DNA of 64,000 nt, taken from positions 13,983,103-14,047,102 of the forward strand of contig CM068549.1 in the NCBI GenBank assembly GCA_035048495.1, written 5' to 3'. Below are positions 11,311-49,325 of this stretch, piece by piece. The stretch is from Euptelea pleiosperma. Lineage: Eukaryota > Streptophyta > Magnoliopsida > Ranunculales > Eupteleaceae. How positions within the stretch are numbered: position 1 is the first letter of the stretch; each line of letters begins with the position of its first letter. The notes beneath the pieces were generated by a model. The model was not told the DNA's origin and searched no databases. It saw only the letters and a list, made by a program, of their open reading frames with translations. Position numbers and translations under genes: made by a program.

Positions 11311-11670
11311 ATGACTAAGATCAGATGGGTACTCTCTCTCTCTCTCATCCTTCTCCTCTCATCCTCTCAACTCCTTCCAAGTTCAGCTCATGAAGGTGTC
11401 TCGGTTCCTATACAAGGAAAACAACCAGACACAAGAACACAGTCATGGGTTACTCCTGAAGATGGTGTAAGGGCCGGCGGATCTGTAGACAAGTTGTTGC
11501 CCAGATTTGTACATGATAGGAGACTCGGAGTCCACATGAAAAAGGTAAGGGCCAACGGACTGCCAGCTACAGGCAATAGGGCTTCATCATCAGCAGTTCT
11601 TAGATCAACCATCTCTTCACTCCATGTGTATTCCATTCTCGGGTTTTTCATTCTGATTAATTTCTTTTGA
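11311..11670 (+). CDS. Small secreted peptide precursor, family copy 1
   Basis: This is a 119-aa protein of a family I do not recognise, with four members here. Residues 1-26 form a textbook signal peptide (basic MTKIR, Leu/Ser-rich core, cut predicted after PSSA). The middle (27-100) is hydrophilic, basic and Cys-free, with EGVSV at 28-32, a dibasic RRLGVH at 70-75 and a KKVR cluster. A Ser-rich stretch (ASSSA, 91-95) precedes the hydrophobic end SSLHVYSILGFFILINFF. Small residues, spacer and a terminal hydrophobic tail resemble a GPI-anchor signal; a tail anchor or processed hormone precursor are alternatives. It is a single exon, and the ATG is the first in the conserved leader. Compared with copy 2 it lacks 15 residues after VTP, an in-frame difference. 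The product is probably extracellular; its function is unknown. Confidence 0.8.
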   Translation: MTKIRWVLSLSLILLLSSSQLLPSSAHEGVSVPIQGKQPDTRTQSWVTPEDGVRAGGSVDKLLPRFVHDRRLGVHMKKVRANGLPATGNRASSSAVLRSTISSLHVYSILGFFILINFF

Positions 11671-11924
11671 CTGTATTTTATTGATCGAAGTAAAGAAATA
11701 GATCAAACCAGGCAAGATCCAAGGATCACTGGAGAAGGGAATAATAATTCAGACAAGGCTTATCTTGCATCGATTTTAAAACACCTCTCTGAGGTGAGTC
11801 AAGGGCTGATTTTTTGTAACAATGGTGTACTCACAATAATGATCATCCTCACAAAATTCAGCGCCCATCCCAACATTTCTAGCTCTATAAAAAGCCTTCT
11901 CTATGAAGTGAATCGTCTTCGATT

Positions 11925-12075
11925 CACTCTGGTCAAGCTATCATATTCGATTGTGTAGACGTCAATCTACACGATGTAGATGTAGATGTAGAGCTTGACC
12001 AGAGATTGACAACATCTCTAGATGTAGAGATTGACTCTGGTCAAGCTATCATATTCGATTGTGTAGACGTCCGAG
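11925..12075 (+). repeat. Local direct and inverted repeat cluster
   Basis: CTCTGGTCAAGCTATCATAT followed by TCGATTGTGTAGACGTC occurs twice (near 11928 and 12036). An inverted AGCTTGACCAGAG lies between them, with short GTAGAT repeats. It can fold into a hairpin. It follows the 3' flank of gene 1 and I see no coding sense in it. Confidence 0.6.
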
Positions 12076-12164
12076 GATCAACCATGTAAAGAAAGAGAAA
12101 AACAATCGCATGCACAAGAACACATAAAATTTACTTGGTTCACCACCAATGGGTATGTCCAAGG

Positions 12165-12483
12165 GAGACGATGACCGTATGGATGTTTGGCCAGTCCCTC
12201 GGTGGACCGGTACATAAAAAATCAGCCTGATTAGTGATTTCTAACCGATTCGATTGAAGTTATTTTCATGGGTTGATTTTAACGGTAGAAATTTGAGCAT
12301 TATTTGGGTGCAAAAATTCAAAGGTTATAAATTACTAATCAGGCTGATTTTTGGTTTGTAGGTCCATCGAGGGACTGGCCAAACATCTATACGGTCAGAT
12401 CCCTCTGATCGTGTGCCACGTGGCTCGCATTGAGTGCTATGACCGTCTTCCGTCACAAGATCTTGTGACACAAGTTTTACTCT
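12165..12483. mobile_element. Palindromic MULE-type MITE, left end lost
   Basis: The arms share CCTCGGTGGACC / GGTCCATCGAGGGACTGG and AAATCAGCCTGATTAGTGAT / its complement. The right terminus ends ACACAAGTTTTACTC, the same terminus as the complete copy at 49669-50074. The left terminus is missing. Confidence 0.75.
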
Positions 12484-12542
12484 ATAATAGTGATAAGACT
12501 CTGAGACATCCAAGCCACATACAACATATTCAGTACATGACC

Positions 12543-12660
12543 TTTTTTTTATGGATATAAATTTATTAAGGAGACAAAGGACGGGCCCATGAGGTAGAGA
12601 AAACCTCCATAGGGCCCGCTACAAAAAAAAAGCAAGGGAGAAGAGAGAAACAAGAACAAC
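12543..12660 (-). mobile_element. LINE 3' tail near gene 1
   Basis: On the minus strand the sequence ends CTTAATAAATTTATATCC and then poly-A (12543-12550), a LINE 3' end with an AATAAA signal. The flank CCAAGCCACATACAACATAT is homologous to the flanks of the tails at 16942 and 27404, so this is one insertion copied by duplication. Confidence 0.7.
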
Positions 12661-12695
12661 AGCAAAGTACAAAGCTAATCACCCGTCCTCGTAAT

Positions 12696-12899
12696 CATGG
12701 TTGGAAATCTCAGGATCGGAGGCCGGATCAGTGGGATCCAGATTAGGATCGGTCAATCTTGCCCGAGACAAAGTGCGACTCCTTTGTGAAACAGTGATCT
12801 CAGGGTGAGACAGAGCCTAGTTTGGATCGAATGGATGGGCTCCGATCCCGATCTGGGTTGCCCGATATATACCAGGATTGACCGAGACTTTGAACCATG
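12696..12899. mobile_element. hAT-type MITE, GATCCGAT-rich (204 bp)
   Basis: The termini CATGGTTGGAAATCTC and GAGACTTTGAACCATG are inverted repeats. They are flanked by CTCGTAAT (12688-12695) and CTCATAAT (12900-12907), 7 of 8 matching. The interior carries GGATCGG / CCGATCC motifs as in the sister copy at 48468-48676. Confidence 0.85.
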
Positions 12900-13363
12900 C
12901 TCATAATAGAGTTTCAACGAAACACAAAAATCTTTAAAACAGCAAACTCCAACACTCCTCAAAGAGCTTAGATCACATAAACATCAAAAGCTTGACTTTA
13001 ATAATAATAGTCTCATTGCTCTCTAGCGTGTCATCAAAATTTCTATTTTCCTTTGCACGATGGCAAAAGGAAGGATGCTCCAAAGGCTCCCAGCACAAAA
13101 AATAATGTGCCATGTAGCTCATATTGTGGTGCGTCAGCAAAGTGGTACTCAGGATCCTGAAGTGGTGCAATCATAAGACTTGAGCTAAAGGTGCCTAGGT
13201 GTACTGAGGTGGCATGGTCAGACATGAGCAAAAGCTGTAACTCACCGAATTCGAGCACCATGAGTTCGCTTTCCTCTTTCGATTCTTGGACTGTTAATTA
13301 AGATCCGGTTAGGTGTTGTTCTGTGTGCATCTTTCGCTGGCTTTGTGTTGCCACCTCGTGACA

Positions 13364-14560
13364 TTTTTTTTTTTTTTGAAAGGGTAAGGAATTTTATTAA
13401 TAGCTTGGCGGCTGAGAAAGCCTACCAAGACAAAGGAAAGGAAAACAACAAGAAGAATAAAAATCAAGGGAGCAACAAGCACATCATCTTCTCCCTAATA
13501 AGGATGACCACCCAAATGCGAAATCCTCAAATCTAACGTCCCTCCCTTCATCATACAATTTGACCCAAGAAAGGCAAGCCTTCGAATCTCCAACAAGAGG
13601 GCATCAAAAGAGGATTTCCTACCTTTGAAGACCCTGGAATTGCGTTCTCTCCAAATTCCCCATAAGATAGTCAATGGGGTCAGAACCCACAATCTCTTAC
13701 CTATCCCATGAAACTCCTTACATTGCCATGCCAAAAACAAATCCTTGATTGATAGAGGAGAAGCCTAGCTGCAACCAAAATCTTTGCTGAACTCTGACCA
13801 TATAGCCCACGCCACTTTGCAATGCACGAAGAGGTGGTAGTTGGATTCACCACTCTCCAAACACATGGGACATTGATCTACCACCCTGATGTCTCTCCTC
13901 CATAAGAGGTCCATAGTATGAACTCTGCCACGGACTGCACTCCATATCAGGAACCGACCTGTAGAAGGAGCTCTATTGGCCCACACTCTAGCCACATGGA
14001 AGTCCACTGCCTCTTTTTCTTCTAATGCCTCGTAGAATGATCTTATAGAGAATTTACTTTTACTATCATGCTTCCAGCATCTAGAATCTTCCACCTGGCT
14101 AAGAGTGGGTGCATCCCCCCCTTTCACAAGGAGATTCGCCACCTGGGACATTTCTTCGTTGTTGAGGTTTCGACAGAAACCGAAATCCCAAGCTGGTAAG
14201 ACATCTTGTGCAACCTGCATCTCACATACAGTGGCTAATTTTTTGCTAAAAATAGAATAAAGATTATGAAATTCAGACTCTAACTAACCTCAGGACACCA
14301 AGTATCTTTCTAGAACAAAACTAAATTACCTTTACCGACCTTAAAGACAACCCCATCCTTGAATTTATGTAGCCCTTTCATAATCCCTATTTCCAAACCC
14401 CACACCCATAAGCACTTTTACCTAGCCACAAACACTCTCGCCATACTTCACGGCTATAACATTGCGCCACAAACTACCTCTCTCTAACCCGAACCTCCAA
14501 AGCCACTTTCCTCTAAGCACTTCACACATACTTCTAAGCTTACATCGTCAAAAGTCGCAA
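13364..14560 (-). mobile_element. 5'-truncated LINE
   Basis: Read on the minus strand, decayed RT-end sequence ([18 protein letters not shown] near 14500) leads to a zinc-binding RT domain at 13765-14220 (CPMCLESGESNYHLFVHC, a CxxC...HxxxxC pattern). A frame with LWGIWRERNSRVFKG follows at 13495-13740, then a 3' UTR with AATAAA and a poly-A tail (13364-13377). LINEs of this kind copy themselves into the target by target-primed reverse transcription. The frame is broken by several shifts and the 5' part is missing, so it is dead. Confidence 0.9.
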
Positions 14561-14634
14561 TCCAAACTTATTATAATTATAAGATTAAACAATATTTAAT
14601 TTGATCAATCCAAATAGTTAGGCAATAGAGTTAA

Positions 14635-15345
14635 TAAAATCAGCTTGATTAGTTATTTCTAACCTTTGAATCTGAGTACCCCAAATAATGCTAGAAATCA
14701 ATGGTTGAAAATAAGCCTTGATAAATATTTTAGTCCAATGGATATGAATTACTAATCAAGATGAATTTTGGCATCTAGGTCCAACTAGGGATGGGCAAAA
14801 CACCTATATGGTCAGTGGTCTGTAAGAGTGTGCCATGTGGCTCATCATATGGCCATGATCAATGGTGTAAAAACTCAAAGTTTGCAAAAAAAATAATAAT
14901 AAAATATCCCAGGTACATGCCCCATTATTGAGGAGTAATGATTACATGGTCCAAGGTCCATGGACTTGCATGGGGTGTCGTTTTTTTCATTGGCCATATA
15001 ATGCTCAAAATCCACGGCTAAAAAAGACTCTAATCCAACAGAAAATTACTAATCATGCATGATAAATTTTCATATGTAGGTCCACCTAGGGATTGGCCAA
15101 ACATCTATACGGACAGTGGTCTCTAAGAGCGTGCCACGTATGCACATGGCGCCCCCTAGCTAGTATAAAAAATCAGCTGGATTGGTGATCTCTACTCCTT
15201 ATATCTAAGCACCTAAAAAAATAACTTGAACTGAACGGTTAAAAATACGTACCTCATGAAAAATGCTGGAATCCAATGTCTATGGATTACCAATCAAGCT
15301 GATTTTTGTATGTACGTCCATCAAGGGTGCACGAATCACTAATGC
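14635..15345. repeat. Two decayed palindromic MITE copies and shared block
   Basis: 14635-14865 and 15170-15345 carry the AAATCAGCTTGATTAGT / ACTAATCAAG arms. Between them, 14930-15150 (GAGTAATGATTACATGGTCC ... ATCTATACGGACAGTGGTCT) is homologous to 22140-22370 and, inverted, to 32430-32610. All are non-coding. Confidence 0.65.
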
Positions 15346-15469
15346 AGTAGACCCAAAAGAAGTGTGCAACCTAGTGCATTTTGTATTCCCCCACAGGGGC
15401 CACAGGAAAAGTTGGCGTCAGGAATTTTTTTTGTCAGGATATGTTGTGGGGAAATGAAAGTCACCAACA

Positions 15470-15840
15470 ATTTACTCAATCTTTTGGGGGACTTGACTTG
15501 GTTTACGTCTATTAATGTTGCTTTCCTTCATCTGTGGGGGCTTGACTTGGTTCCTTAACGTGTCAACCTTTATATTGATGGAAAGGACTACTTCCACCTG
15601 AAATTGTTTTTGCTAGTTGGATTTTGAACCATTCAATCTAGTGGCCCAATGTATCTCTTTTGGGCCCACTGATTGCAAGTATCACGTACCCTGATTGGAT
15701 ATCTTTAGCCATTAACTACTTTTTAGAAGTGAATCTACCCGTTGGATTCAAGCATTCTTTTGGGTCGTACTACATCAAACGGCTAGAAATTATTAATCAA
15801 ATATGATTTTTCGTGTACATATCCACCAAGATAATTATTA
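15470..15840 (+). repeat. Upstream duplicated block of peptide gene 2
   Basis: GGGGGCTTGACTTGGTT, AACGTGTCAACCTTTATATT, CATTCAATCTAGTGGCCCAA and TTTTGGGCCCACTGATTGCA match the block before gene 3 (25925-26130) and, more weakly, before genes 1 and 4. Confidence 0.75.
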
Positions 15841-16023
15841 ATCAAATTATCTAATTGGATATATAATTTGACACGCTAGCTGTGTGTGCGACTGTACGGC
15901 ACACACGGCTAAAACAAATATAGTCAAACAAAAAATCTGGTCAAAATTAATAACGCTCTTATAACTCCCTAATATATTCTTAAAAAATTTAATAACGCGC
16001 TCTTATATCTCGCTAATACATTA

Positions 16024-16033
16024 ATATATATAT
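16024..16033 (+). promoter_or_regulatory. TATA box of peptide gene 2
   Basis: The ATATATATAT-type box sits 67-76 bp before the ATG, followed by GGTCATGTAGTCTACAAACC, which gene 3 shares exactly. Confidence 0.7.
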
Positions 16034-16099
16034 TAACGGTCATGTAGTCTACAAACCACAGAAGCTCATAACTTTGAAAGCTTTCTCAGCCCAGGAAAA

Positions 16100-16498
16100 A
16101 TGACTAAGATCAGATGGTTACTATCTCTCTCTCTCATCGTTCTCCTCTCCTCATCTCAACTCCGTCCAAGTTCAGCTCACGAAGGTGTCTCAGTTCCTAT
16201 ACAAGGAAAACAACCAGACTTGGTTACTCCTGTTGCAGGTTCAGACAATTACAAGAAGAAGGCACACCATCTCTCTGAAGATGGTGTAAGGGATGACGGA
16301 TCTGTAGACAAGTTGTTGTCCAGAGCTGTACATGCTAGGAGACTCGGAGTCCACGTGAAGAAGGCAAGGGCCGGTGGAGTCGGTGGACGGGCAGCTACAG
16401 GCAATAGAGCTTCGTCATCAGCAGTTCTTCGATCACCCATCTCTTCACTCCATGTGTATTCCATTCTCGGGTTTTTCATTCTGATTAATTTCTTTTGA
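16100..16498 (+). CDS. Small secreted peptide precursor, family copy 2
   Basis: This 132-aa protein is the longest member and seems to keep all modules of the family. Residues 1-26 form the signal peptide (MTKIRWLLSLSL...PSSA). EGVSVPIQGKQPD is at 28-40 and a unique LVTPVAGSDNYKKKAHHLS block at 41-59. EDGVRDDGSVDKL (60-72) is shared with copies 1 and 3. RRLGVHVKKAR is at 80-90, then a Gly/Ala-rich stretch, NRASSSAVL, and the hydrophobic end SSLHVYSILGFFILINFF. The LVTPVAGSDNY part aligns with VTLVASSDSY in copy 4, so this arrangement may be ancestral. There is no Cys and no recognised hormone motif. A single-exon gene with its own TATA box and conserved 5' leader. It is probably secreted and possibly GPI-anchored; its function is unknown. 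Confidence 0.82.
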   Translation: MTKIRWLLSLSLIVLLSSSQLRPSSAHEGVSVPIQGKQPDLVTPVAGSDNYKKKAHHLSEDGVRDDGSVDKLLSRAVHARRLGVHVKKARAGGVGGRAATGNRASSSAVLRSPISSLHVYSILGFFILINFF

Positions 16499-16941
16499 TG
16501 TTGATCGTGTGACTGTTTTATTGATCGACGTAAAGAAGATTCTTTAATTATTTTGCTTCGTTGAAGAAATATATCTTTAATTACTTAGTTCACCACCAAT
16601 GGCTATGTCCACCGGAGATGATGGTCCAGAGTTCACTACAGATGAATTGAAAATATACAAAATAAGCCTCGAACTACGACAAATCCTAGTCCAGAACCAT
16701 TTAACAAACCAGTTCAAAATTGGATATTATACAATTTTCCAAAATGAACGATGAACTAAAAATTCTAGCCGACCTTAATATTAGGTGAGAGTGGTTCCTC
16801 CAACCTTCGTTGGAAGCTAAGGTCTTGGTGAAGGAGGTTGCCCCATACTAATTGGGTCGGAACCTTAAGGGAGCCCACCTATAATAGTTATAGACTTGAT
16901 ACCCAAGCCACATACAATATATATTCAGCGGCACATGTCTC

Positions 16942-16987
16942 TTTTTTATGGATTTAAATTTATTCAGGAGACAAATGAAGGCCCTAG
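16942..16987 (-). mobile_element. LINE 3' tail fragment near gene 2
   Basis: It is the homologue of the tails at 12543 and 27404: T-run, then TGGATTTAAATTTATT and GGAGACAAA. The LTR starting at 16988 interrupts it. Confidence 0.7.
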
Positions 16988-19803
16988 TGTCATGCCCCGG
17001 ATATCAACTACACGAATTTCGATATGTACGTCGTGTGTCCTGAATTCAAGGCAAGCAAGGCATTCGCATGCTCGCATCTAACTCAAGTTATGAAATTTCA
17101 GGAAATGTTTTTTCTAATACGGAAATGTGTCGGATGTCGAATCCACACTTTGGGAGTGAGCGTAATATCAGAACAAAAATTAATAGAAAATGCTATGAAT
17201 GATGAACGGGTGAAAGTGATGGTTTAAGATTTTTTAAACATCCTTTTCGAGCGAGATTTTTACGAAATTAATCAAGAGCAAGTATTAGTGAAAGCCATTA
17301 AAAACATAAGAATGAGAGAAATTAAACAAACTCAATATTGAACTCAAATCATTTAGTCAACTAGAAAATGTTTACAAAACTATGAGATGAAACAATTTGT
17401 TAAACAAATTAATAAAAATAAACTAGAAAGCAATAAAAAGAGGCTTGAGAGAGAAAGTGGAACTAAATATATTACCTAGAGAGAGAAAGTGGGAAAAACT
17501 AAAGAGAGGTAGAGATAGAAGCTAGAGAGAGAAGTTTATAACTTAGAGAGAGAAATGAGGAAATAGAGGGAGAAACTACCTCAGCAACTTCACCGGAATG
17601 GGATTGGACCATTGATCGGCCATTGTGGTGCACGGAACATGATGGTGGTTCGTGTGGGGCTGCTAAGTAGAAGGCAGTGCATGGTAGAGATGGAGTTGAA
17701 GGGAGATTTACTGGGTTTGGGGTGCTGGACTTCGGAGGAGCATGTAATGGAGGGTTGTAGGCGGCAAGAAGGAGATATGATCTCCACAGCAACAGTGAAT
17801 GGAGGGTGCGCCTGTGGTCAAGATCTACTCCAGAAAAGAGAAACCGTGGATGAGTTTCCACGTTTTGGAGATGAGACGCCAGCTGGTGCTTGGTAGAGAG
17901 TGGTGTGGACGGTGCACTAGCAGCAAGAAGAGCACTAGCTGCTCTTTGGAGAAGTGGCGGCGATCTGTGAGCAGGTGGTGATGTTGCACGGTGGTGCACT
18001 TGTAGGCGGTCTAGAAGGTGGAGAGGCTAACCGTGAATATGAGTTGGAGATGCAACAGGTGGTGGACGTACATAGCAGCGCTAAGAGGGGCAATCACTGA
18101 AGATGGAGATCATGGGGTGAAATCGGTGGTGGAGGAGCCAGCAATCGTGGAGAATTGAGGGCGAATCTGCTGGCTTTGCAAGTCCATGCACCAGCAAGGA
18201 TGCCGGAGTTGCAGATCGCTACATGATGAGGCCCACCTGCTGGTGGTGCAAAGGAGATGCACCAGTCCAAGGGAGAGAAGCCTAACGGCTTCCTCTCTAT
18301 CTTCTTTTCTCTTCTTTTCTTCTTTTGTTTTTGAACGAGAAAAGGGTTGGGCTTGAGAATGGCTTGAGAGAGAGAGAAAGAGTTGAGGTTCGGTGGTGAG
18401 GGATGAGAGGTGAGATGGATGGTTTTGGGAGTAGAAAGTGAGAGAGAGGTGGATGAGAGACGGTTGGGGGAGTCCCCTCTATTCTCTTTTTAAGAGAATA
18501 TATATACATAATTCCTTCGGGTTCGGTCCAAGTCTCCTTTGGGGTTGGACGTCCAACACTGTGATCCACCTCTTTTCTTGAATAGCAACTTTCTATGTTC
18601 CTCACCATTGAGCCATTATCCATCGCACGTTTGAGCATCTGATACCTATGAGTCGCACCTTCCTTTGATCTTCACATTGGTTTACAAAATCGGTTATGAT
18701 GGCCCACCTTTTCATTCCCACAACACATGCTCATTTGAGATGTGCTATCTTTTTGGAAATATATGATCACCTTCCATATGTCTTTCACGTCTAGCAACTT
18801 TTTGTTCAATAGCCTATACACATGGTCCACCACTGTGCATTAACTCAAGCATCTGCCACCTTGGTCCTTCTTCATATATATGCTAGCCGATTACACCCTT
18901 GTGTGGGTTGTGTCTATAGTGCTTGTATGACTTCGGACAAGATCCAACGGTTGAGTTGGTGGACATGAGACTCACGGGTGGTGATGATCCTATTGTGAGC
19001 CAATCAACTAGTAGCCATGAATGGATGTGTCTATCGATGATTGGACTCCTCTTCATGGGTTGCTCATGATCGTTGGGATGGATCACCTTCACTAGTTGGT
19101 TCGAGAGTGGCAGCGATCCAATGTATAATCAACATAAAATTGTCTCGTCTCTCATGCATTTCACTTCATAGTTTGCCACGTACGTCATCATATGCTTCTT
19201 GAATTGCCCGATCCATCTTTCACTTTGTTTGGTAGCTCCCATGTGACATACTGGCTCATCTACTTGGCCCATCTTGTAAAGTAACTCCGTACTACCCCAT
19301 CTCTCCGTTAGTATAGACACCCACGCTTCATTGATTAATGAACTGAAATGATCCATTGTCCAAACAACTGTGTTGGTTCCATGTATCACCTTGGAATCAC
19401 TTTTGGCTGTGTCAGCCAGAATTAGTCCTTGATGTTGTGGTCCAAGATCAAGGTCCTACTATACTATTTCTGCTAACTCGGCCCGCACCTTGGTCCATTG
19501 TCTTGGTCAATTCTCATCCGCTCTTTTGGTTCTTGATCTGACTTTTTGATTTTCTGGCTCGGCTTGTACTTGGCCCTGTGGTCCACATCTTTGCCCGTGA
19601 CCTATTAGTCTTTAGGCTTCTCAGATTGTGGTTTGCGGCTAGGTCCACCAGTACTCTTCCTACTTGGCCGTCCTTTAACTTCGCCAACTCCACTATCTTG
19701 ATTCACCCTTTTATCCCACATGGTTCACTGATCTTTGATTGTGACTTTTATTGTTGATCGTGGGCCCGCCAACCTTGAGAATCGCCCGATCGGGTTTTCT
19801 ACA
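16988..19803 (-). repeat. Long Ty3/gypsy-type LTR (2.8 kb)
   Basis: On the minus strand it starts TGTAGAAAACCCGATCGGGC and ends GGGGCATGACA. A minus-strand TATA-like stretch lies near 18495-18510, followed by a C/T-rich leader and frames without family similarity, as in large LTRs. Its low-coordinate end is homologous to 57246-57360 and to 27457-27566. No internal genes are present, so it behaves as a solo LTR. The flanks (CCTAG and ATAAT) do not match, so the right edge is uncertain. Confidence 0.6.
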
Positions 19804-21620: not shown

Positions 21621-21630
21621 ACGTTTCAAC

Positions 21631-22030: not shown

Positions 22031-22139
22031 GTTTCAACTTCGGTTTTTAATAAAACTAAAGTCCATTGATTTTTTAACATTGTAGTCTAAACAATATATT
22101 GTTTATGTAGTACTGCATGTACATGCCGTACTATTAAAG

Positions 22140-25418: not shown

Positions 25419-25817
25419 GAGTAAACCTTGGCTCACACCTGTGTGTGAGCAAAGCCGTTCACACACCACAATATGAGCCACGTGGCACACTCTTAGATTA
25501 CGATGACTGTATGAATGTTTGACCAGTCCCTCGTTGGACCGGCAAACCAAAAATCAGCCTGATTAGTTATGTCAGACCTTTGGATCTAGTATCCCAAATA
25601 ATGTTCAATAATGTTCTAAATTCAACGGTTAAAATCAACCCCTGTAAATGACTCCAATGCAACGCTTAGAAATCACTAATCAAGCTAATGTTTTGTTTAC
25701 AAGTCCACCGAGGGACTAGCCAAACATCCATATGGTCATATAAGAGTGTGCCCCGTGGCTCATATTGTGATGTGTGATCGGCTTTGCTCTCACACAGGTG
25801 TGAGGGAAGGTTTTCTC
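25419..25817. mobile_element. Palindromic MULE-type MITE with 9-bp duplication
   Basis: It starts GAGTAAACCTTGGCTCACAC and ends with the complement of GAGAAAACCTTCCCTCACAC. The flanks TTTGGTGGG and TGTGGTGGG match 8 of 9, as expected for Mutator-like elements. The arms carry CACAATATGAGCCACGTGG and its partner. It is non-coding. Confidence 0.85.
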
Positions 25818-25924: not shown

Positions 25925-26260
25925 TTCATCGAGTCAGCTTTGGGGGGCTTGACTTGCTCCCTTAACGTGTCAACCTTTATATTGGTGGAAAGGAAAGGAC
26001 TACTTCCACAGGAATTTTTTTTTCTAGTAGGATTTTGAACCATTCAATCTAGTGGCCCAATGTATCCCTTTTGGGCCCACTGATTGCATGTATCACCCTG
26101 ATTGATTATCTTTAGCCAATTAACCTTTAGTACTTTTTAGAAGCGATTCTACCCATTGGATTCAATCATTCTTTCCACTTGCACCACACCACAGTGAGAG
26201 AATTAACAGAATCCCTCTTGTGCTTACCCGTTTGATTTTTCACTACCCAAGAAAATCTTG
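25925..26260 (+). repeat. Upstream duplicated block of peptide gene 3
   Basis: It matches 15540-15840 before gene 2 (AACGTGTCAACCTTTATATT, CATTCAATCTAGTGGCCCAA). It then carries CCTCTTGTGCTTACCCG, which also occurs before genes 1 and 4. Confidence 0.8.
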
Positions 26261-26271
26261 AATCCAACTGA

Positions 26272-26519
26272 TACACATCACCCCCATAAAAAAATGCTTA
26301 AATTCAACGGCTAGAAATCACCAAACAAGCTGAATTTCAATCATTACTCTTTGGTACACATCACCCCATAAAAAAATGCTTAAATTCAACGGCTAGAAAT
26401 CACCAAACAAGCTGAATTTCAATCATTACTCTCTCGTACACATCACCCCATAAAAAAATGCTTAAATTCAACGGCTAGAAATCACCAAACAAGCTGAATT
26501 TCAATCATTATCTGTCTGG
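26272..26519 (+). repeat. Three-unit tandem repeat, 82-83 bp
   Basis: Units start with TACACATCACCCC at 26272, 26355 and 26437 and continue with ATGCTTAAATTCAACGGC and ACAAGCTGAATTTCAATC. A single related unit is present before gene 1 (near 10157 and its duplicate), so this is a local amplification in copy 3. Confidence 0.9.
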
Positions 26520-26723
26520 TACAAATATGACAAACTGTTCAACAACTTGTCTCCAAATCAGATGATCTAATTGGGTAATTTGACACAAGAAATATAGGTG
26601 GGTCTCAGCCAGCCGTGTGTGTGCGACGTGTACGGTACACGCGGTGTGCCGGCTAAAACAAATATAGTCAAACAAAAAATCTAGTCAAAATTAAAAACGC
26701 TCTTATCTCTCGCTAAGACATTA

Positions 26724-26734
26724 ATATATATATA
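26724..26734 (+). promoter_or_regulatory. TATA box of peptide gene 3
   Basis: ATATATATATA lies ~70-80 bp before the ATG. The downstream leader GGTCATGTAGTCTACAAACC is identical to gene 2. Confidence 0.7.
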
Positions 26735-26802
26735 GTAGCGGTCATGTAGTCTACAAACCACAGAAGCTCATATCTTGACAAAGCTTTCTCAGCCCAGGAG
26801 AA

Positions 26803-27159
26803 ATGACTAAGATCAGATGGTTACTATCTTTTTCTCTCATCGTTCTCCTCTCATCTTCTCAACTCCCTCCAAGTTCAGCTCACGAAGGTGTCTCAGTTCC
26901 TGTACAAGGAAAACAGCCAGACATAAGTACACAGTCATGGGTTACCCCTGAAGATGGTGCAAGGGCCGGCGGATCTGTAGACAAGTTGTCGTCCGGACTT
27001 GTACATGCTGGGAGACTCGGAGTCCACATGAAGAGGGTAAGGGCCGGCGGTCTGCCGGCTACAGGCAATAGAGCTTCGTCAGCAGTTCTTCGATCACCCA
27101 TCTCTTCACTCCATGTGTATTCCGTTCTTGGGTTTTTCATTCTGATTAATTTCTTTTGA
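26803..27159 (+). CDS. Small secreted peptide precursor, family copy 3
   Basis: This 118-aa protein is very close to copy 1. The signal peptide is 1-26 (MTKIRWLLSFSLIVLL...PSSA). HEGVSVPVQGKQPD is at 27-40, and STQSWVTPEDGARAGGSVDK follows. The core is RLGVHMKRVR at 71-80, but the first Arg of the dibasic pair is Gly (HAGRLG), unlike the other three. NRASSAVLRSPI and the hydrophobic SSLHVYSVLGFFILINFF close it. Length differences among copies 1-4 are all multiples of three. There are no Cys or introns. It shares promoter, leader and 3' sequence with copy 2 and, like copy 2, is followed by the LINE tail and LTR end. Its function is unknown; likely exported, possibly GPI-anchored. Confidence 0.82.
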   Translation: MTKIRWLLSFSLIVLLSSSQLPPSSAHEGVSVPVQGKQPDISTQSWVTPEDGARAGGSVDKLSSGLVHAGRLGVHMKRVRAGGLPATGNRASSAVLRSPISSLHVYSVLGFFILINFF

Positions 27160-27403
27160 TGTTGAACTTGTGGCTGTATTTTATTGATTAAAGCAATAGA
27201 AGAATCTTTAATCTTTCGTTGAAGATATTCAGGCCATCCTTAATATCAGGGGCGAGTGGCTCCGTCCAACCTTGGTTGGAAGCTACGGCCTTGGTGAAGG
27301 AGGTTGTCCCATCCTAATCAGGGCGGAATCTTACGGGAGTCCACCTATAATAGTTATAGACTTTGGGACCCAAGCCACATATAAGATGTTCACCCACAAA
27401 TGT

Positions 27404-27456
27404 CTTTTCTTATGGATTTAAATTTATTAATTAAGGAGGCAAAAGGAAGGGCTTAG
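27404..27456 (-). mobile_element. LINE 3' tail fragment near gene 3
   Basis: It is homologous in sequence and position to those near genes 1 and 2 (flank CCAAGCCACATATAAGATG). It is followed at the same point as in copy 2 by an LTR end. Confidence 0.7.
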
Positions 27457-27566
27457 TGTCATGCCCAGGATTCCAACTACACGTACGATTCTCAACGTGT
27501 GCTCGTCTATCATGAATTCAACGCTTGAATCAAGACACGCAAGGCATTTGTACGCTCACATCTTAG
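27457..27566 (-). repeat. Truncated LTR end shared with copy 2
   Basis: TGTCATGCCCAGGATTCCAA matches the LTR end at 16988 (TGTCATGCCCCGG) and sits at the same place relative to the LINE tail. Similarity stops near 27566, so most of the LTR has been lost or replaced. Confidence 0.7.
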
Positions 27567-31540: not shown

Positions 31541-33180
31541 TTCACATAACGGTGGGTTACGATTGTAGACGGGGGGCTTAAATGCTTCTGACCACCTTTG
31601 ACGAGGGCATTCACGATTCTAGGGTACCTGATACTGAGTACACCTTCGCTCACACCATGCTGTGACCGAAGCCGATCACAGCCCACAATACAAGCCATTA
31701 GAGGGCACTGACCATATGGATGTTTGGCCAGTCCCTCGGTGGACCTGCAAACCAAAAATCAGCCTGATTAGTGATTTACAAACTTTGGATCTTTGCTTCC
31801 AAATAACACTCAATAATGCTCAAATTCCTACGGTTAAAATCTACCCACGAAAATAACTTCAATTCAACGATTAGAAATAATAATAAAGATATAATAAAGA
31901 TATACATTGGGAACCACGTGTGTGAGATAACACAAATGTCAAATCATATGGAGTCACCACCAATTCTTTTTAACGGTATAATTGGTTACGGGGTTTGAAA
32001 ATAGATAACATTACATTTTTAGATAAGTAAAATACAAATTAGTGGCTTCATTGATCTACTAACCATTTGAAAGATCACTAGATAAGTAGGTCTTTTGTAG
32101 ATTAGATAAGGTATTAGGCATCCCAATTTACATATATTTAAATGGTTACCTACTCTTGTATCATCAATCATCTTTTCAAGTTACTGGTTAAGAAAAAAAA
32201 ATATGTATAATATAAATCTACAAGTATAAAAACATAAGAAAAAAAAAGTGAGATTACCCTACTATACATGTATTTTGAGTTTTCTGCGCAAGTTAAAAAA
32301 AAAAAAAAAACGATAGAGCAACATAAAAAAAGCACGAGAAAATGAATTAAAATAAACAACAAATATATAACAACTTAAAGTTCAATAAACAAAATAAAAC
32401 ATAAAGAAAAAGAAAAAAAGATTAAGGTGGGTAGGTGGAGTTACATATGTAAGTTCATCCTGATTACTAATTTCTATCCATTGGATTAGAGTCTTTTTCA
32501 TGGTTTGCTTTTAACCGTGGATTTTGAGCATTATTTTGCCAATGACAAAACGACAGCACCATGCACCATGATAATGTCCATGGCCCTTGGACCATGCGAT
32601 CATTACTCTTAAAATAATGGGGGTATTTACAGTACATTTAACTTTTTGTGTTTTTTTTTCAAACATCGACGTTGATGATGGATCATATTATGAGCCACAT
32701 GGCACATTAGTCTTAGAGACTACTAACTATATGGATGTTTGACCCATCCCTAGATAGACCGTTATACCAAAATTGCTCCGGATTAATAATTTCTATCCGT
32801 TGGATTAGTAATTTTCATTGTTTATTTCTAAGCATGGATCTATGCATTATTTGGCTTAATCGCATCCAAAAGTTAAAAATCACTCATGGTGATTTTTATT
32901 ATATACGTCTACCAAGGATGGTCCAAACATCCAGACGGTTAGTGGCCTCTAATAGAGTGCCATGTGGCACGCACTGTGGTCCATCATCAAATTTTTTTCT
33001 AGGGAAGGAATTATGCAATTGACGTAAACTGACGTCAATTAAGAAAAAGAAAAGTTGTTTAAAGACTTAATTACCCCTAAAAAACTACGTATAGACTTAA
33101 ATATCCGAAAAAAATAAAATTAAAATTAAAATAACATTATAGGGGCATTTTCAGAGCATAAGTTTTCAATATTTTTTTTC
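31541..33180. repeat. MITE remnants and AT-rich spacer, no gene
   Basis: 31650-31890 is a half copy of the palindromic family (CCTCGGTGGACCTGC, AAATCAGCCTGATTAGTG). 32430-32610 is an inverted copy of the 14930-15150 block. 32690-32980 is another decayed copy (GTGCCATGTGGCACGCAC). Between them lie A/T runs only. Confidence 0.6.
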
Positions 33181-41724: not shown

Positions 41725-41829
41725 TTTTTTTTTTTCCTTTTCTCTTGCAATACGTGGCGTTTATAGGTGCGCCTATTGTGAAGCCCGCGACCCTCGTCTA
41801 ACCCCAATTTTCACTTTATAATAGTATAG

Positions 41830-42205
41830 ATTGTTGCTTGGCTTCATCTTCAAGGGCTTGACTTGGTTTGTTGTTGCTTTGTTTAGTGCTAATTATATTT
41901 AGGTCCTTTAACGTGTCGACCTTTATGCTAAGGACTACTTCAACTGGAATTTTTTTCTCTAATGGGATTTTGACCAGTCAATCTCAGGGGCCAATGAATC
42001 CTTGTGTAACGCTTGCTTTTGGGCCACTAATATATTTATCCCATTAGTGGATATACACGCTAATAAGTCACTTGGTACTTTTTTTAGGAATGATTCTACC
42101 CGTTGAATTAAGGTATTCTTTTAGTTAATTACTACATACATCGGCTAGAAATCATTAATTAGTTTGATTTTTGGTGTGTATATATATCCACAGGGGTATG
42201 TTAGG
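41830..42205 (+). repeat. Upstream duplicated block of gene 4, left part
   Basis: It carries GGCTTGACTTGG, ACGTGTCGACCTTTATG and TTTTGGGCCACTAA, the order seen before genes 1-3. It is cut at 42205 by the FAR1-type MULE and resumes after 47231, with CATCTTGTGCTTACCCG near 47668. Confidence 0.7.
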
Positions 42206-42397
42206 GAGTGAATCTAGTATGCAACTGTTTGCATACTTTAGAGTATGCAAACGTTGGCAGAAAGCGACACGTGTGAACAAACCCCTGGTTAACCCAACCA
42301 GGGTTTAATCTTTTTAAAACAAAAAAAAATTTCTTTTAGGTGAATTTAAAAGTCCGAACAGAGAAACATTGCTCAGACTTAAAAGTCCGAACATCAA

Positions 42398-42780
42398 TTT
42401 AAAGCGATGATGTTTTTTTTCTGTTCAGACTTACAAGTCTGAACAATACATCCTTGTTCATACTTATCCACCTGAACAGAGACAAATTGTTCAGACTTAA
42501 AAGTCTGAACTTCGATTTAAAGCTATAATGTTTTTTTTCTGTTCAGACTTACAAGTCTGAACAATACATCCTTGTTCATACTTATCCACCCGAACAAAGA
42601 CAAATTGTTCAGACTTAAACTTCCGATTGTCACTTTATACCTGTGATTTTTTCAAATCTTACATCCGTGTTCACACTTATCCACCCGAACAATGAAATAT
42701 TGTTCAGACTTAAAAGTCCGATTGTCACTTTAAACTTGTGATTTTTTCAAGTCTTACATCCATGTGCACATGCATAACCT
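42398..42780. repeat. Subterminal tandem repeats with a palindrome
   Basis: Units begin TTTAAAGC at 42398 and 42516 (118-bp period), then shorter decayed units at about 42634 and 42729. Each carries GTTCAGACTTACAAGTCTGA-type palindromes plus CATACTTATCCACC. A cluster of palindromes just inside one TIR is a plausible transposase-binding region, by inference. Confidence 0.8.
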
Positions 42781-43549
42781 CCCACAACATATGTGCTGCA
42801 TGAAAACTTCACCCATGTCTGAATACTATTCAATAAATCTTGATTCCTAAGTTTCCAATTAATCTTGATTCCTTGCAAAAATCAGCCATCGGCCTTACAA
42901 AAAATGTTGAAGCTATTTACATTTGAGTACTGATATATAAGATGTACAAAAGATTGGTTTCACACCAATAAAAAGTCATGGAATTAATTCTGTTTAAAAT
43001 CGGCCACTGCTTAAAAACACTATCTTTTCTTCAAATGAGCCTACAACAAAAAACCAAGCAAGAAATTAACATCAGACAACATTTGTAATTCCACAAAACT
43101 GTATGTAAAAATAAATGATAAATATAACCATGTGTACTTGAGTAGTAATATAACCATTCCACCAACATTTCATTATCAAAATTCAAGCCTTCGAATTAAG
43201 GAGTTCAAACTTTCCTACATAGTTTTTCAAATCACAATGAATCACATACCAATTAAAATGGACGGTAAAGCCTTCAAAAATTTTGGTCATCAACCCTTAC
43301 CTAACTTAACAATGGATCAACATTCGTATTTTGTGTTGGGATTGATTGTCCTTGTTGTCCGTATAATCCCTACACATGTATTCAAACTTCATAATAAAGT
43401 TAAAGTTGAATTGATCATTTGAAATTTTGTAATGACATGTGTTCAAAGTTTACCTGACAAGACATTAGCGGCCTATTTGGTTGCACGAACCTTCCTTGGC
43501 TAGATGATGCAAGAGGTAGCTCTCCTCCTCTATCCTTATTGGCCTTATT

Positions 43550-45763
43550 CTATTTCGAACATCTTTCCAATGCACTCTTAAACCTTTTAGTTGGTTCTCC
43601 TTTCTTCTTCTTTTTTGCTGGATCCCGTATATTACTTTCTTCTTCAATAATTTCATGTTTTCTCAATGCAGGTTCTTCATCATGTGCAATCTTAGGTATT
43701 GATTCTCCTTGAATCACATCTAGTTCTTTTAAGTAGGTAGTTATATATCGTTTAACCACTTCGTAGGATCTCTCATCAACAACTCCTTTTACAGCAACAG
43801 TAAGAGCTCTATGGGCTAAGTCGCTATAGCGCAAAGTCAAAGACTTTTGATAATCATCGTGTATAACAATTTCAGTATCATTAGTTACAAGACCAGCCTT
43901 AGCATCCTTTGTCCATCTCTTTAAAAAGTACCTTGATGGAATTTCATAGAAGCGCCTTGCAAGTAATACTTTTAATGCATGCACACATAAAATGCCCATA
44001 AACTCAAAACTCTTACAACTACACTCAATAGTGTTGTCGTCGGAGTTAAAAATCACATGCCGATCCATCTCACGCCAAACTTCATCCAACTTCTCAACCT
44101 TTATATGTAAACTGAACCTCTTAGATCTTCTATCTGATCAATGTAACACACTATATTTTTGAACTCTACTTGAAATGTTTTGAATGCCTTCCTTATATAA
44201 ACTTGAGATACCTGCTTTTCAATGGATAAACAAGATATCAAAATTGGTTCAGTTTGTTTGCTCTTATAATCTTCTTCTGTCTCTATTCGACGCCTGTCCA
44301 TTACTGTTTTCTCATATTGTAGGATAAAATCCGATATGCATAAGGTTCCCTTGACATAACCCTTGAAAAAAGCATTTACACTTTCACTTCGCTGAGTTGT
44401 TATCATGCCACCACAAAAGTGTTCTCGTCCATATACTGAAGCCCACTTCTCTCGGATCTTATACAAACCTTTCAACCATTCATTATCAGATAGCCCATAT
44501 CATCAATCATAGAGCCCCAATATGATTGAAACTCCTCTTCTGTCTCAGAATTGTAAATGCATTTTTTGAAATCTTTCTTAAATTGCTTATTAACTTCAAA
44601 CACGTGAGAGAGGTGTTTAGCAGCATTTTTATAGATGTGCCATAAGCGGAGACGATGATGTGTACTTGGTAACACTTGTGCTATTGCATTTGCAATCGCT
44701 TGGGCTTGATCAGTCAAGATTGTCTTTGGTTGTTTTCCGGACATCGTAGCAAGGAATGATTCAAACAACCAAACAAAAGATTCAGTAGATTCATCCACAA
44801 GCAATGCACATCCAAAAATAACAGTCATGCCATGATGATTGACTCCAACTATCGGTGCACATGGCATACTATACTTGTTTGTTCGAAAGGTTGTGTCAAA
44901 ACAAACAACATCACCAAAAAAACTATAGTCAATTTTAGACTTGGCATCCACCCAAAACAAATTACACATCTAGTTGTCTTGATCAACTTGTATGGCATAA
45001 GAGAATGATGGATTTTCCTTTTGCATCTGCCTAAAGTAATTCAAAGCCACTTGAGCGTCCCCCTCTTTGTATATCTCCCTTCGCCTTTTTTGGTAGTAAT
45101 TGACACAATCCTTTTTAGTGAAGTTCAAATATTGTGAACCTCCATGTTCTGCACTCATAACTGAAAAGACTTGACTTGGACCACATCCTCTAGTACGCAT
45201 CGAATCAAGATATTTAGCCTGTATATTTTCAATGTTTTGTTGTGATTTCAAGAGATGCACTTCTGACTCACATGCAAGACTATGGTTGTGCTCTTTTATG
45301 AACTTTTTTACAATCCAATGCTCATCCTCTTCAACCTTGAATGTAATACATGCCTTGCAATTCGTTCGTGCAATTGATCGGGGTTTTTTTGGAGTCACCT
45401 TCTGTGAATGCTTTTCTTTAACACCTTGTTTTGAACAAACAAATTTGCATAAAGAAATTTGCCACTTTTCAGATGTCTTATATTACCTTTTCGCACACTG
45501 AATCGCACTCTCCTTCTATACTCATTGTAGAAATTATACGCTTGATTCTCAGATTAGAACACCACACCAACTTTGGGCACTTGATATTCACCATCATTAA
45601 AATTATGAGTGATCTCTATTCTAGATAAATCAATTCTTTCCCTTCGCACTTCCAAATCGATAAGTTGAGTAACTTTTTCATCCTCATCCTTATCTATAGG
45701 TTCTACATTACGATTCCATGAGTTATCGTCGCTTGAACTTGTATCATTAGAGACATTGGCCAT
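43550..45763 (-). pseudogene. FAR1/FHY3-like MULE transposase, few lesions
   Basis: The start is MANVSNDTSSSDDNSW (45763), or ten codons upstream. Downstream: a FAR1 DNA-binding domain (NQAYNFYNEYRRRVRFSVRK, TNCKACITFKV, KEHNHSLACE), then the transposase core (FFGDVVCFDTTFRTNKYSMP with the first DDE Asp, KTILTDQAQAIANAI with the second, THHRLRLWHIYKNAAKHL), then a SWIM finger (CSCKSFEFMGILCVHALKVL). It would act in the nucleus on the TIRs. Lesions: TAA at 45554-45556, TAG at 44970-44972, frameshifts near 44475-44490 and 44095-44110, and a TAG at 43550 after which QGRFVQPNRPL-type sequence continues. Undamaged relatives are domesticated as FAR1/FHY3 light-signalling factors; this one sits between TIRs, so it is transposon-borne. 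Confidence 0.92.
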
Positions 45764-45793
45764 TGAGATTGCAACACTATAAAGATAAGACAT

Positions 45794-47090
45794 TGTAAAA
45801 GATAATTAGAAGCAAAAATCCAACAATAAATACACAAAACTTAAAAATAAAACTAAATTCCTAAGTATAATTACCTTAGTATAGAAAAGTTTTTTAGACT
45901 GGTCTCCATATTTTATTATGACCATCCAAGAAAATGGCATATTTGGATAATTCAAATCATCAAATCAAGTTAGTTTTGGCCTTAGCAACATACATAATAT
46001 GATGGCGCTAGACATCCCAACGTGTAGAGCATTTTCTGAGAGTGTTTTGTTCGATCATTATTTCATATATGAGTACTCTGTTTTGTTGGATCTAGTTGAA
46101 ATTGGATAGATGTATGTGGCTGCCCCTCTATCAGATGGATTCAGTACACTTGATTCAGGTGTTCTTATCGTTTTACCATAATTTTACATGTTGCAATAGG
46201 GAGCATACAATCCTATTATTACCTGACTGTGACTATAAGCACCTATTGCTCTTCTTGGAATCTGATCTAGAATTTGCCATACTCTCTTATGGCATCTGGG
46301 CTGCACCAAATCATAGTGTATATTAGCTAGGAAAGTAGAAATTATAAGGAAATTGTTAGAAAGGCTTCTATTTTCGTATCCCCCATATATTTTTTATACT
46401 ACTTAAGGAGTCCAATGAAGCAAAAGATGGAGCATCATTGGAGATTAAGACAATTGTTAGCTAGCCCATTTGTAGTGGAAGGCTACACGAGGAAATGTGA
46501 TTAGATGAGTGTCAAGAAAGAAAAGGGCATTTCTCTAAAGTTTGATATGTCTTGAGACAATAAGAGATACCATGTCAACGAAACACAGGGTTGAAGCTTT
46601 TGCAACTTGATGAGGTATGAAGTTATTCAACTCAACCATAACTTGATTGTCAACAATTTCAGAAAGCTATTTAAATTATAAACCCTAATGTTTTGAGTTT
46701 TCTATGTACTTCGGATACAACCAAGGTTTCAAACCTAGAAGAAGATTCAAGAACAGTAGGCTTAGATGAGAATAAACTTCGGACTTTTGGAGGGTGTTTA
46801 CCTCTTCAACTCTGCAACTCGCAATCCATGCATGATTGAATACAGTGTTTAACTCTGCAACTCGTTGGACTGAGAGAAACTAAAAAAACAAAGATAAAAA
46901 GTGTTCAACTCTGCAACCTCGAATACATGCTCTTCAACGGCGTTAGCTGCAACTCATCGGAAGGAGAAATGAGCGGAGGCGATGGGAGGAGAGAGAAAGG
47001 AGAAATGGAAAGGGAGCAAGGAACAGAGGAAATGGGAATGAAGAAGAGCGGGAAAACAAATCCGTTTGTTTTAACAAAAAAGATTATCAA
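45794..47090. other. Non-coding 5' region of the FAR1-type MULE
   Basis: Between the transposase start and the right TIR I see only short frames. A GGAGAAATG-containing purine-rich stretch is at 46955-47030. It may hold promoter and leader sequence. Confidence 0.5.
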
Positions 47091-47261
47091 AGAAATACTT
47101 TTTTTTTCAAAAAGGCTAAACCTCGGTTAGGTTAACCGGGGGGTATGTTAACACACGTGTTGCTTTCTGTCAACGTTTGCATACTCTAAAGTATGCAAAC
47201 AGTTGCATACTAGATTTTTCCGTATGTTAGGCCACTGATCGATTTGATGGAAAACTGGCTG

Positions 47262-47636
47262 GTTCAAAAGTTTTCAAGATTTGCCTGACCACCCACAATA
47301 TAAGCCACGTGGCAATTTATTAGAGGACACTGACCATATAGATGTTTGACCAATCTGTAAGTGGACCTACAAACCAAAAATCAGCCTGATTAGTGCTTTC
47401 AAACCTCTGAATATTTGTATGGAAATAATGGTAAATAATGCTCAAATTCCTACTGTTAAAATCATCCAACAAAAATGACTTCAACTAACAGTTAGAAATC
47501 AATGATCAGATTGATTTTAGGTTTGTAGGTCCATCTAGGGATTGGCCAAACATCCATACGGTCAGTGTCCTCTAATAAATTGCCACGTGGCTTATATTGT
47601 GGTTGGTCAGGCAAGTCTTATTCAAAATTTTCTACT
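47262..47636. mobile_element. Palindromic MITE
   Basis: TTTGCCTGACCACCCACAAT on the left pairs with ATTGTGGTTGGTCAGGCAAG on the right, extending through GCCACGTGGC and the AAATCAGCCTGATTAGTG arms. The outer ends are uncertain. Confidence 0.78.
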
Positions 47637-47741
47637 TGCACCAGGGGGAGGACTGATAGATTCCATCTTGTGCTTACCCGTTGATTTGACTACCACATAT
47701 ACAAATCATCAGCCAGGCTGATTTTTGGTCTCTAATAAGTG

Positions 47742-48297
47742 GAGTAAAACTTCTGGCACAAGATGTTGTGACCGAAGCCGGTCAAAACCCACAATACGAG
47801 CCACCTGGCATACTATTAGAGGGCGCTGACCATATGGTTATTTGGCTAGTCCCTCGGTGGACTTGCAAACCAAAAATCAGCCTGATTAGTGATTTACAAC
47901 CTTTGGATCTTTGCACCCAAATAACGCTTAATAATGCTCAAATTCCTACCGTTATAATCAATCCAACGAAAAATAACTTCAATCCAACGTTTAGAAATCA
48001 CTAATGATCAGGCTGAATTTAGTTGTAGGTCCACGGAAGGACTGGCCAAACATCCATACGGTCAGCACCCTCTAATAATGTGCCACGTGGCTCGTATTGT
48101 GGGTTGTGACCAGGCCGGCTTGTGACAGAAGTAGGAGGTTCTGAGTTCAACTCTCCTTGAAGCCACCCCTGAAAAGAGTAGAAGGTAATAAGTGTCTCTG
48201 TCCACATTAAGTCTTCCAATACTAAGAAGCCCGGATACCCCTGGTTTCAAAAATAAATAAAACAAAAAACAAAAAATCTGTGACAGATGTTTTGCTC
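47742..48297. mobile_element. Palindromic MULE-type MITE split by a SINE
   Basis: It starts GAGTAAAACTTCTGGCAC and ends ACAGATGTTTTGCTC, flanked by CTAATAAGTG and CTCTTAAGTG (8 of 10). The right TIR is interrupted by the insert 48130-48278. The arms CACAATACGAGCCACCTGG and CGTGGCTCGTATTGTGG pair. Confidence 0.82.
48130..48278 (+). mobile_element. 5'-truncated SINE with A-rich tail
   Basis: A B-box-like TGAGTTCAACTCTCC occurs near the 5' end, and the 3' end is A-rich (AAATAAATAAAACAAAAAAC). It is flanked by the 9-bp repeats TGTGACAGA (48121-48129 and 48279-48287). Removing it restores the right TIR of the host MITE. Confidence 0.82.
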
Positions 48298-48467
48298 CTC
48301 TTAAGTGCACCCAAGGTGTGAGCCAAATATTCATGGTCAGTGGGTCCCAAAAAGTTGGCACGTGGAGTTTATAGGAGGGAAAGGAGAGCAACTTTTTTTC
48401 CATCTTAACCGGTCTAATACAAAGATGACTAGAAATATTTTGATTCAGTGATCCTGCCACTTATAGT

Positions 48468-48676
48468 CAAGGATGAAAGTCTCGGGATCGGAGGCTGGAT
48501 CGGTAGGCTCCGATCCCGATCCAGATCGGTCCGATACGGAACAGGATCGGCCATCTCGCTCCGAGACGGTGTGAAAATCCTTAAGAAAACAGAGAACTCG
48601 GGCGAGACAGAGCATGGTATGGATCGGATCGGTGGGCTCCGATCCCGATCCAGATCGCCCGAGACTTTGAACCATG
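48468..48676. mobile_element. hAT-type MITE, GATCCGAT-rich (209 bp)
   Basis: CAAGGATGAAAGTCTCGGG and CCCGAGACTTTGAACCATG are inverted termini flanked by the perfect 8-bp duplication CTTATAGT (48460-48467 and 48677-48684). It is sister to 12696-12899. Confidence 0.92.
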
Positions 48677-48918
48677 CTTATAGTTAGGCACCACCTGTCC
48701 TGGTTAAGGTGGCCTTTAACTGTAGGATCACTGGATCAAAAAGTTGCTCCAACGGTGACAAAGTGTTCAACAACTTGTCTATAGATCAGATGGTTGTGAT
48801 GATCTAGCTAATTGGTAATTTGACTGGGTCTCAGCCAGCTGTTTATGCCACGTGTACGGTAGGGCTGGGATGAAATTCCTCTCCTACCGACTCAAACAGA
48901 TATATTCTTAAAAACCTT

Positions 48919-48938
48919 AATATATATATATATATATT
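48919..48938 (+). promoter_or_regulatory. TATA tract of peptide gene 4
   Basis: A TA run ~75-95 bp before the ATG, followed by the shared leader TCCATGTAGTC and ACAAACCACAGAAGCT. A CACGTG G-box lies upstream at 48849-48854. Confidence 0.68.
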
Positions 48939-49013
48939 AGAGGTCCATGTAGTCGACAAACCACAGAAGCTAGTATCTTTGCAAAGCTATCTCAGATTCT
49001 CAGCCAAAGAAAG

Positions 49014-49325
49014 ATGACTAAGATCAGATGGTTACTATCTCTCTCGCTCATCCTTCTCCTCTCATCCTCTCAACTCCCTCCAAGTTCAGCTCAAGAAGGT
49101 GTCTCGGTGAAAAAACAAGCAGACACAAGTAGAGAGTCTAGGGTTACTCTTGTCGCAAGTTCAGACAGTTACTTCCATGCTCGGAGACTCGGAATCCACA
49201 AGCATGCAAAAGCCCGCACAGTGCCACGTGTACGCACCAGATCTTCTTCAACAGTTCAATCACCCATCTCTTCACTCCATCTGTATTCTATTCTTGGGTT
49301 TTTCATCCTGAATAATTTCTTTTGA
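49014..49325 (+). CDS. Small secreted peptide precursor, family copy 4
   Basis: This 103-aa protein is the shortest and most diverged member. The signal peptide (1-26, MTKIRWLLSLSLILLL...PSSA) and C-terminus (SSLHLYSILGFFILNNFF) are nearly unchanged. The middle is rebuilt: QEGVSVKKQADTSRESR, then VTLVASSDSYFHARRLGIH, then HAKARTVPRVRTRSSST. It lacks the EDGVR...DKL module of copies 1-3 but keeps the dibasic RRLGIH core at 57-62, with all changes in frame. There is no Cys, and the middle is strongly basic. Conservation of both ends and of the core across otherwise variable paralogues suggests these are the working parts. Its leader and promoter match the other copies, with a G-box upstream. 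Function is unknown; probably extracellular, possibly GPI-anchored. Confidence 0.8.
   Translation: MTKIRWLLSLSLILLLSSSQLPPSSAQEGVSVKKQADTSRESRVTLVASSDSYFHARRLGIHKHAKARTVPRVRTRSSSTVQSPISSLHLYSILGFFILNNFF

Follow-up and report, generated by a model that had tools for sequence, protein, structure and literature searches.

A tandem family of small precursor proteins with conserved hydrophobic ends and a variable cationic middle in Euptelea pleiosperma

A stretch of 64,000 nucleotides of the Euptelea pleiosperma genome (GenBank assembly GCA_035048495.1, contig CM068549.1, positions 13,983,103 to 14,047,102 of the forward strand), hereafter the window, carries a tandem array of four short genes that looks like a real and undescribed protein family. 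An earlier inspection of the letters (the sequence-only reading) had reported four ORFs (open reading frames) of 103–132 amino acids (aa) in the same orientation, and these are present. All are intact from ATG to TGA on the + strand and encode precursors of 119 aa (gene 1, 11311..11670), 132 aa (gene 2, 16100..16498), 118 aa (gene 3, 26803..27159) and 103 aa (gene 4, 49014..49325). The four are very probably genuine protein-coding genes. The reading favoured here, with a probability of roughly 0.5, is that they form a lineage-restricted tandem family whose products are small surface peptides, cationic and unfolded, with a fast-evolving middle enclosed by a fixed export signal and a fixed tether.

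The two ends of the proteins are nearly identical. MTKIRW opens all four and SSLH(V/L)YS(I/V)LGFFIL(I/N)NFF closes all four, as the sequence-only reading had described; it was also right that every member holds RLG(V/I)H and that the centre is free of cysteine, which the four lack altogether. Its term 'single-exon' holds in the sense that, as judged from the DNA, a single uninterrupted frame leads from start codon to stop codon in each gene. The four-protein alignment has 59 invariant columns, 41 of which fall within residues 1–26 or 93–119 (gene 1 numbering). Putative signal peptides are encoded at 11311..11388 (gene 1, residues 1–26, with a hydropathy of 2.65 over residues 7–17), 16100..16177 (gene 2), 26803..26880 (gene 3) and 49014..49091 (gene 4), and the conserved C-terminal tails at 11611..11667 (gene 1, 19 hydrophobic residues), 16439..16495 (gene 2), 27100..27156 (gene 3) and 49266..49322 (gene 4), all on the + strand. 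Between them, also on the + strand, lie RLGVH of gene 1 (11521..11535), gene 2 (16340..16354) and gene 3 (27013..27027), and RLGIH of gene 4 (49185..49199). The preceding residue is arginine in genes 1, 2 and 4, which in gene 1 gives an SBT6.1/S1P-like RRLG, and glycine in gene 3 (GRLG in place of RRLG). Gene 4 is the most diverged of the four. TATA-like runs occur 55–93 bases upstream of each ATG, and the base at position –3 is a purine in all four genes.

One relative was found outside this locus, a check that the sequence-only reading had named. A four-protein profile, searched against about 5.8 billion proteins with the 7987 candidates sharing most words scored, recovered an uncharacterized 126-aa protein of Protea cynaroides (NE237_026655) at an E-value of 8.5e-9. 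This protein is similar in length and has a signal-like start (MTxxRWLLSLSLI), the core motifs VTVVAGSD and RKLRIYMKR, and the tail SSLHVYxxxGxFIL; it differs in being 36% or 41% identical to gene 1, according to the comparison, in having one cysteine and a net charge of +17, and in lacking RLG. Its core motifs correspond to VTPVAGSD in gene 2 and VTLVASSD in gene 4, and to RRLGVHMKK in gene 1. Thus, VTxVA(G/S)SD is found in the middle of genes 2, 4 and the Protea protein, and R(R/K)Lx(V/I)(H/Y) in the middle of genes 1, 2, 4 and the Protea protein. The 66–85% identity of genes 2–4 to the gene 1 protein, together with a homologue from another genus, takes the likeness beyond chance. Shuffled sequences, 2000 per comparison, never reached the real alignment score of the Protea signal part, tail or mature part with any of the four genes. 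The core without its ends was matched by 13, 63, 1 and 12 of 2000 shuffles for genes 1–4 respectively, so the likeness of the core is weaker than that of the ends, and weakest for gene 2.

No other relative was recovered. With NE237_026655 as the query, the only match among the same 5.8 billion proteins was the protein itself, and a profile of the mature parts again retrieved only this protein, with an E-value inflated by its presence in the profile. None of the five proteins passes a curated Pfam or NCBIfam cut-off, in agreement with the description of the family as unrecognized. Below threshold, the Protea protein resembled YjeF_N (15.5 bits against a cut-off of 24.9) and genes 1, 3 and 4 resembled EF0750_LPXTG, a bacterial surface family (12.5–13.8 against 47 bits); genes 1–4 lacked even a sub-threshold Pfam match. 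The Protein Data Bank gave no sequence match. A bacterial or viral origin was also considered and set aside: a pattern matched 156 stretches in genome contigs and 143 in viral contigs, none of which encodes a relative. No title or visible part of an abstract among the literature matches listed describes the family.

The ends and the centre have evolved differently. Codon models tested the two ends jointly (residues 1–26 and 93–119 of gene 1), and the ratio of replacement to synonymous rates (omega) was 0.37–0.41 under MG+F1X4 and 0.42 under GY+F1X4. Likelihood-ratio tests rejected an omega of 1 with p values of 0.010 (MG+F1X4), 0.024 (GY+F1X4) and 0.043 (GY+F3X4), and only 99 of 5000 neutral simulations of the ends reached the observed synonymous fraction. 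Pairwise counts, from which values for each end were taken, gave omega 0.22–0.45 for the signal part and 0.17–0.53 for the tail. The centre, with omega 1.06–1.28, is not different from 1. The pooled ends are thus under purifying selection in three of four models, as would be expected of real genes, and they contradict the alternative raised by the sequence-only reading of a ratio near 1 throughout, although omega for the whole protein does not differ from 1. Synonymous divergence is 0.10–0.16 in the signal part against 0.17–0.56 in the centre; because synonymous sites there also differ little, gene conversion between copies may add to the likeness of the signal part.

Hydropathy points to a putative signal at one end and a possible tether at the other. 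By hydropathy only, maxima of 2.52–2.65 lie at the start, near residue 7, of all five proteins, and the tails of all five reach 1.85–2.58, with the hydrophobic stretch running to the C-terminal end. Values in the middle do not exceed 0.81 for genes 1–4 or 1.40 for Protea. This middle comprises 58–87 residues, has no cysteine in the four, and carries a net charge of +4 to +8. An AlphaFold2 model of gene 1 built with the five sequences places helices at residues 3–19 and 97–118 and nothing between. Of the earlier description 'secreted', the signal-type start therefore stands by hydropathy, whereas the conserved tail, hydrophobic to its last residue, appears to fit a GPI (glycosylphosphatidylinositol) signal or a membrane tether better than free secretion. 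As described in the passages of PMC8331152 on this point, the plant transamidase swaps a hydrophobic C-terminal signal for the anchor, and an uncut signal can act as a membrane domain. The proteins would thus be tethered either way. The odds for export combined with a membrane tether seem about even, having been lowered slightly after the shuffle and window-ORF control described below; attachment by GPI in particular is a more tentative proposal.

On the favoured reading, the fixed signal peptide would take the chain into the secretory pathway, where the fixed hydrophobic tail would be replaced by a GPI anchor or kept as a membrane tether. The outer face of the plasma membrane would then display the cysteine-free, cationic, unfolded middle of 58–87 residues (about 51–80 if a GPI anchor is added at one of the candidate sites). 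This middle, which changes fast between copies, is probably the payload. An SBT6.1-type protease cutting at R(R/K)L could free a portion to act as a signal, for instance in defence, although a signalling or defence role for the payload is rather doubtful.

Several observations weigh against this reading. The AlphaFold2 model is of low confidence (mean predicted local distance difference test score, pLDDT, 52.6), and a firm one would need more than five sequences. A triplet rule for GPI sites is satisfied by all five proteins (25–30 residues from the C-terminus in genes 1–4, 27 and 21 residues from it in Protea), but when the core alone was shuffled and the tail left intact, 3176–3959 of 5000 sequences satisfied it too. 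The triplet was dropped as uninformative after this control. When the entire mature part was shuffled, 148–353 of 5000 sequences had both the triplet and a hydrophobic tail, and it is this tail that argues for a tether. Among the 27 ORFs of at least 90 aa in the window, five combine a hydrophobic start, a hydrophobic end and the triplet; that four of these are the family speaks for the favoured reading, whereas the fifth, which speaks against it, is an unrelated 91-aa ORF (61233–61508, + strand, starting MSPWASDQ) where tblastn with genes 1–4 listed no match. The last two residues of the Protea tail are LR, which we take to be unusual for a GPI signal, and gene 3 lacks R(R/K)L. In addition, a fourth codon model (GY+F) gives p 0.090 for the pooled ends, omega for the whole protein is 0.80–0.85 and not different from 1, and only one homologue emerged from the 7987 best word-sharing candidates.

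The R(R/K)L motif, present in four of the five proteins (genes 1, 2, 4 and Protea), suggests another use of the same chain. The proteins could be soluble peptide-hormone precursors, cut by an SBT6.1-type subtilase at this motif to release a diffusible ligand from the centre, with the tail serving as a propeptide or a passing anchor. The signal-like start and basic centre suit this idea, and SBT6.1 cuts the GLV1 precursor after RRLR in vitro, according to the parts of PMC4983112 bearing on that site. By analogy, R(R/K)L would be a putative cleavage site here. However, the conservation is the reverse of that in known hormone precursors, where the ligand is conserved: here the ends are kept and the centre varies. 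Eleven of 12 hormone-family patterns match none of the five proteins, and the twelfth, the loose SxS, matches four. A soluble hormone is therefore unlikely.

The charge of the centre invites a second alternative, namely cationic antimicrobial peptides that are bound to the membrane and owe their diversity to gene duplication directed against microbes. A net charge of +4 to +8 (+17 in Protea) and a fast centre within a tandem array are both in keeping with it. Omega in the centre is not significantly above 1, however, the four proteins have no cysteine, and the low-confidence model predicts no structure there. This explanation is improbable.

The open frames themselves must be weighed against decay, that is, against decaying or untranslated repeats whose frames are open by chance. 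The sequence-only reading had stressed that all four frames stay open despite many changes; they do, yet this is weak evidence by itself. In simulations with substitutions only, 33%, 14%, 10% and 14% of neutral copies stayed open under four settings. The gap lengths are likewise ambiguous. In a MAFFT DNA alignment all gaps in the coding sequence are multiples of 3, whereas with cheap gap penalties, over six non-independent pairs, 22 of 40 coding gaps are not (18 of 40 are), compared with 45 of 55 in the flanks (10 of 55 are). The argument from gap length thus depends on the gap penalties and the aligner. The whole-protein omega and the position of the array amid transposon remains would also suit decay. 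Against it stand the purifying selection on the ends, the Protea homologue, which belongs to another genus yet shares both the ends and the core motifs, and the codon phase, which is unchanged for 92.8–100% of aligned coding bases in 30 combinations (five gap settings by six pairs). Decay is accordingly very improbable. A related candidate, that the phenylalanine-rich end is read-through into an intron with GGGTTTTT as a possible splice donor, is disfavoured: the tail is kept in Protea and its changes lean synonymous, with 5.0–6.5 of about 21 synonymous sites against 7–8.5 of about 60 replacement sites changed in the three pairs with gene 4.

The array appears to have been built of at least five units by tandem duplication and later loosened by repeat insertions. 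The duplications were mapped by comparing each gene and its flanks (4 kb per side) with the window in blastn. The unit around gene 3 (25943..27524, + strand), comprising an upstream block, promoter, gene and 3' block, is collinear with that around gene 2 (15536..17052, + strand) and piecewise with 9721–12587 around gene 1. Between genes 2 and 3, identity is 86% in the upstream block (15536–15760 and 25943–26174), 77% in the promoter and gene (15881–16548 and 26616–27212) and 79% in the 3' block (16762–17052 and 27227–27524). Around gene 1 the matching blocks keep the same order at wider spacing (9721–9803 and 9850–9934; 11255–11702; 12482–12587). Gene 4 has its promoter and gene in common with gene 1 (48757–49325 and 11078–11670). 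A relic of a fifth unit at 51680..51850 (+ strand) consists of the promoter block only (nhmmer with a four-promoter model, E 6.6e-16), followed by a repeat element at about 51896–52217; no coding match lies downstream of it within 52218–56000. Also, tblastn with the four proteins and the Protea protein found no fifth coding copy in the window (best other E-value 0.14).

The conserved promoter block lies about 120–280 bases before each ATG and again at 51680–51850. All five copies, the relic included, contain TAATTTGAC, and those of gene 3, gene 4 and the relic also have an ACGTGTA core; the block may be a regulatory element common to the units. A segment of 302–303 bases immediately before gene 1 occurs in two tandem copies of 100% identity (10115–10719); it was either duplicated very recently or is an artefact of assembly. 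An 82-base tandem repeat of 3.1 copies before gene 3 (26268–26523) has sequence in common with it. Elements of about 250–400 bases in both orientations, several of them self-inverted and resembling miniature inverted-repeat transposable elements, are scattered through the array (12172–12482, 25419–25784, 31636–31891, 47276–47619, 47742–48111, 49669–50074 and 51896–52217). That the genes are themselves transposon cargo is disfavoured by their single orientation, their collinear flanks and the absence of any other coding copy in the window.

The statement that every other coding sequence in the region is broken was checked on ten of the 23 other ORFs of at least 90 aa. Five of these ten reach a Pfam cut-off (Tf2-type SH3, zf-RVT, PMD, SWIM and MULE), and multi-exon genes could still be present. 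These domains we take to be typical of transposons. A broken MULE transposase with a SWIM zinc finger extends over three consecutive ORFs at 43550–44969 (– strand). A 145-aa ORF at 5624–6061 (– strand) gives a weak match, below cut-off, to the armadillo-type ARMC5 and presumably resembles plant U-box/ARM proteins. Rfam at its gathering thresholds gave no match in the window.

If the four genes are expressed, they belong to a kind of gene largely missed by annotation: among about 5.8 billion proteins a single relative came up, and none of the four did. Plants have many orphan or lineage-restricted families of small secreted proteins, so the find is less surprising than it might seem. A larger proposal, though a doubtful one, is that the family forms a new class among plant signal or defence peptides, tethered to the membrane and carrying an exchangeable, fast-evolving cationic payload between a fixed export module and a fixed anchor. 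On this proposal it would be restricted to Proteales or related lineages, a placement that follows from the single Protea homologue.

Among known families, the patterns of CLE, CEP, PIP, IDA, GLV/RGF, PSK, PSY, CIF/TWS, Pep and CAPE match none of the five proteins, in keeping with the earlier statement that they match none of the hormone families it named. GLV/RGF (CLEL) precursors are similar in that R(R/K)L resembles the SBT6.1 site RRLR of GLV1, as given in the relevant part of PMC4983112; they differ in the GLV pattern itself. RALF and other cysteine-rich peptides differ because the four genes have no cysteine and Protea has one. SCOOPs are described in PMC8448819 as Brassicaceae peptides with a conserved C-terminus bearing SxS. 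Distant membership of the SCOOP/STMP phytocytokines, whose precursors are also small, variable and multigenic with a signal peptide, is hardly credible: SxS occurs in four of the five proteins but is lacking in gene 3 and differently placed elsewhere, and the C-terminus here is hydrophobic.

Small GPI-anchored plant proteins, such as AGP peptides, LORELEI-like proteins (LLG) and LTPG, combine a signal peptide with a hydrophobic C-terminal tail, and the family appears to follow the same plan. It is not LLG or LTPG, because the four proteins are cysteine-free, and not AGP-like, because only 0–2 AP/SP/TP pairs follow residue 26. The GPI passages of a review (PMC11756074) concern LORELEI co-receptors and general references to GPI proteins, not peptide precursors. 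In known plant peptide precursors it is the ligand that stays constant while the remainder diverges. In the present family both ends are constant and the middle diverges, so that a tethered, fast-changing payload can be tested directly.

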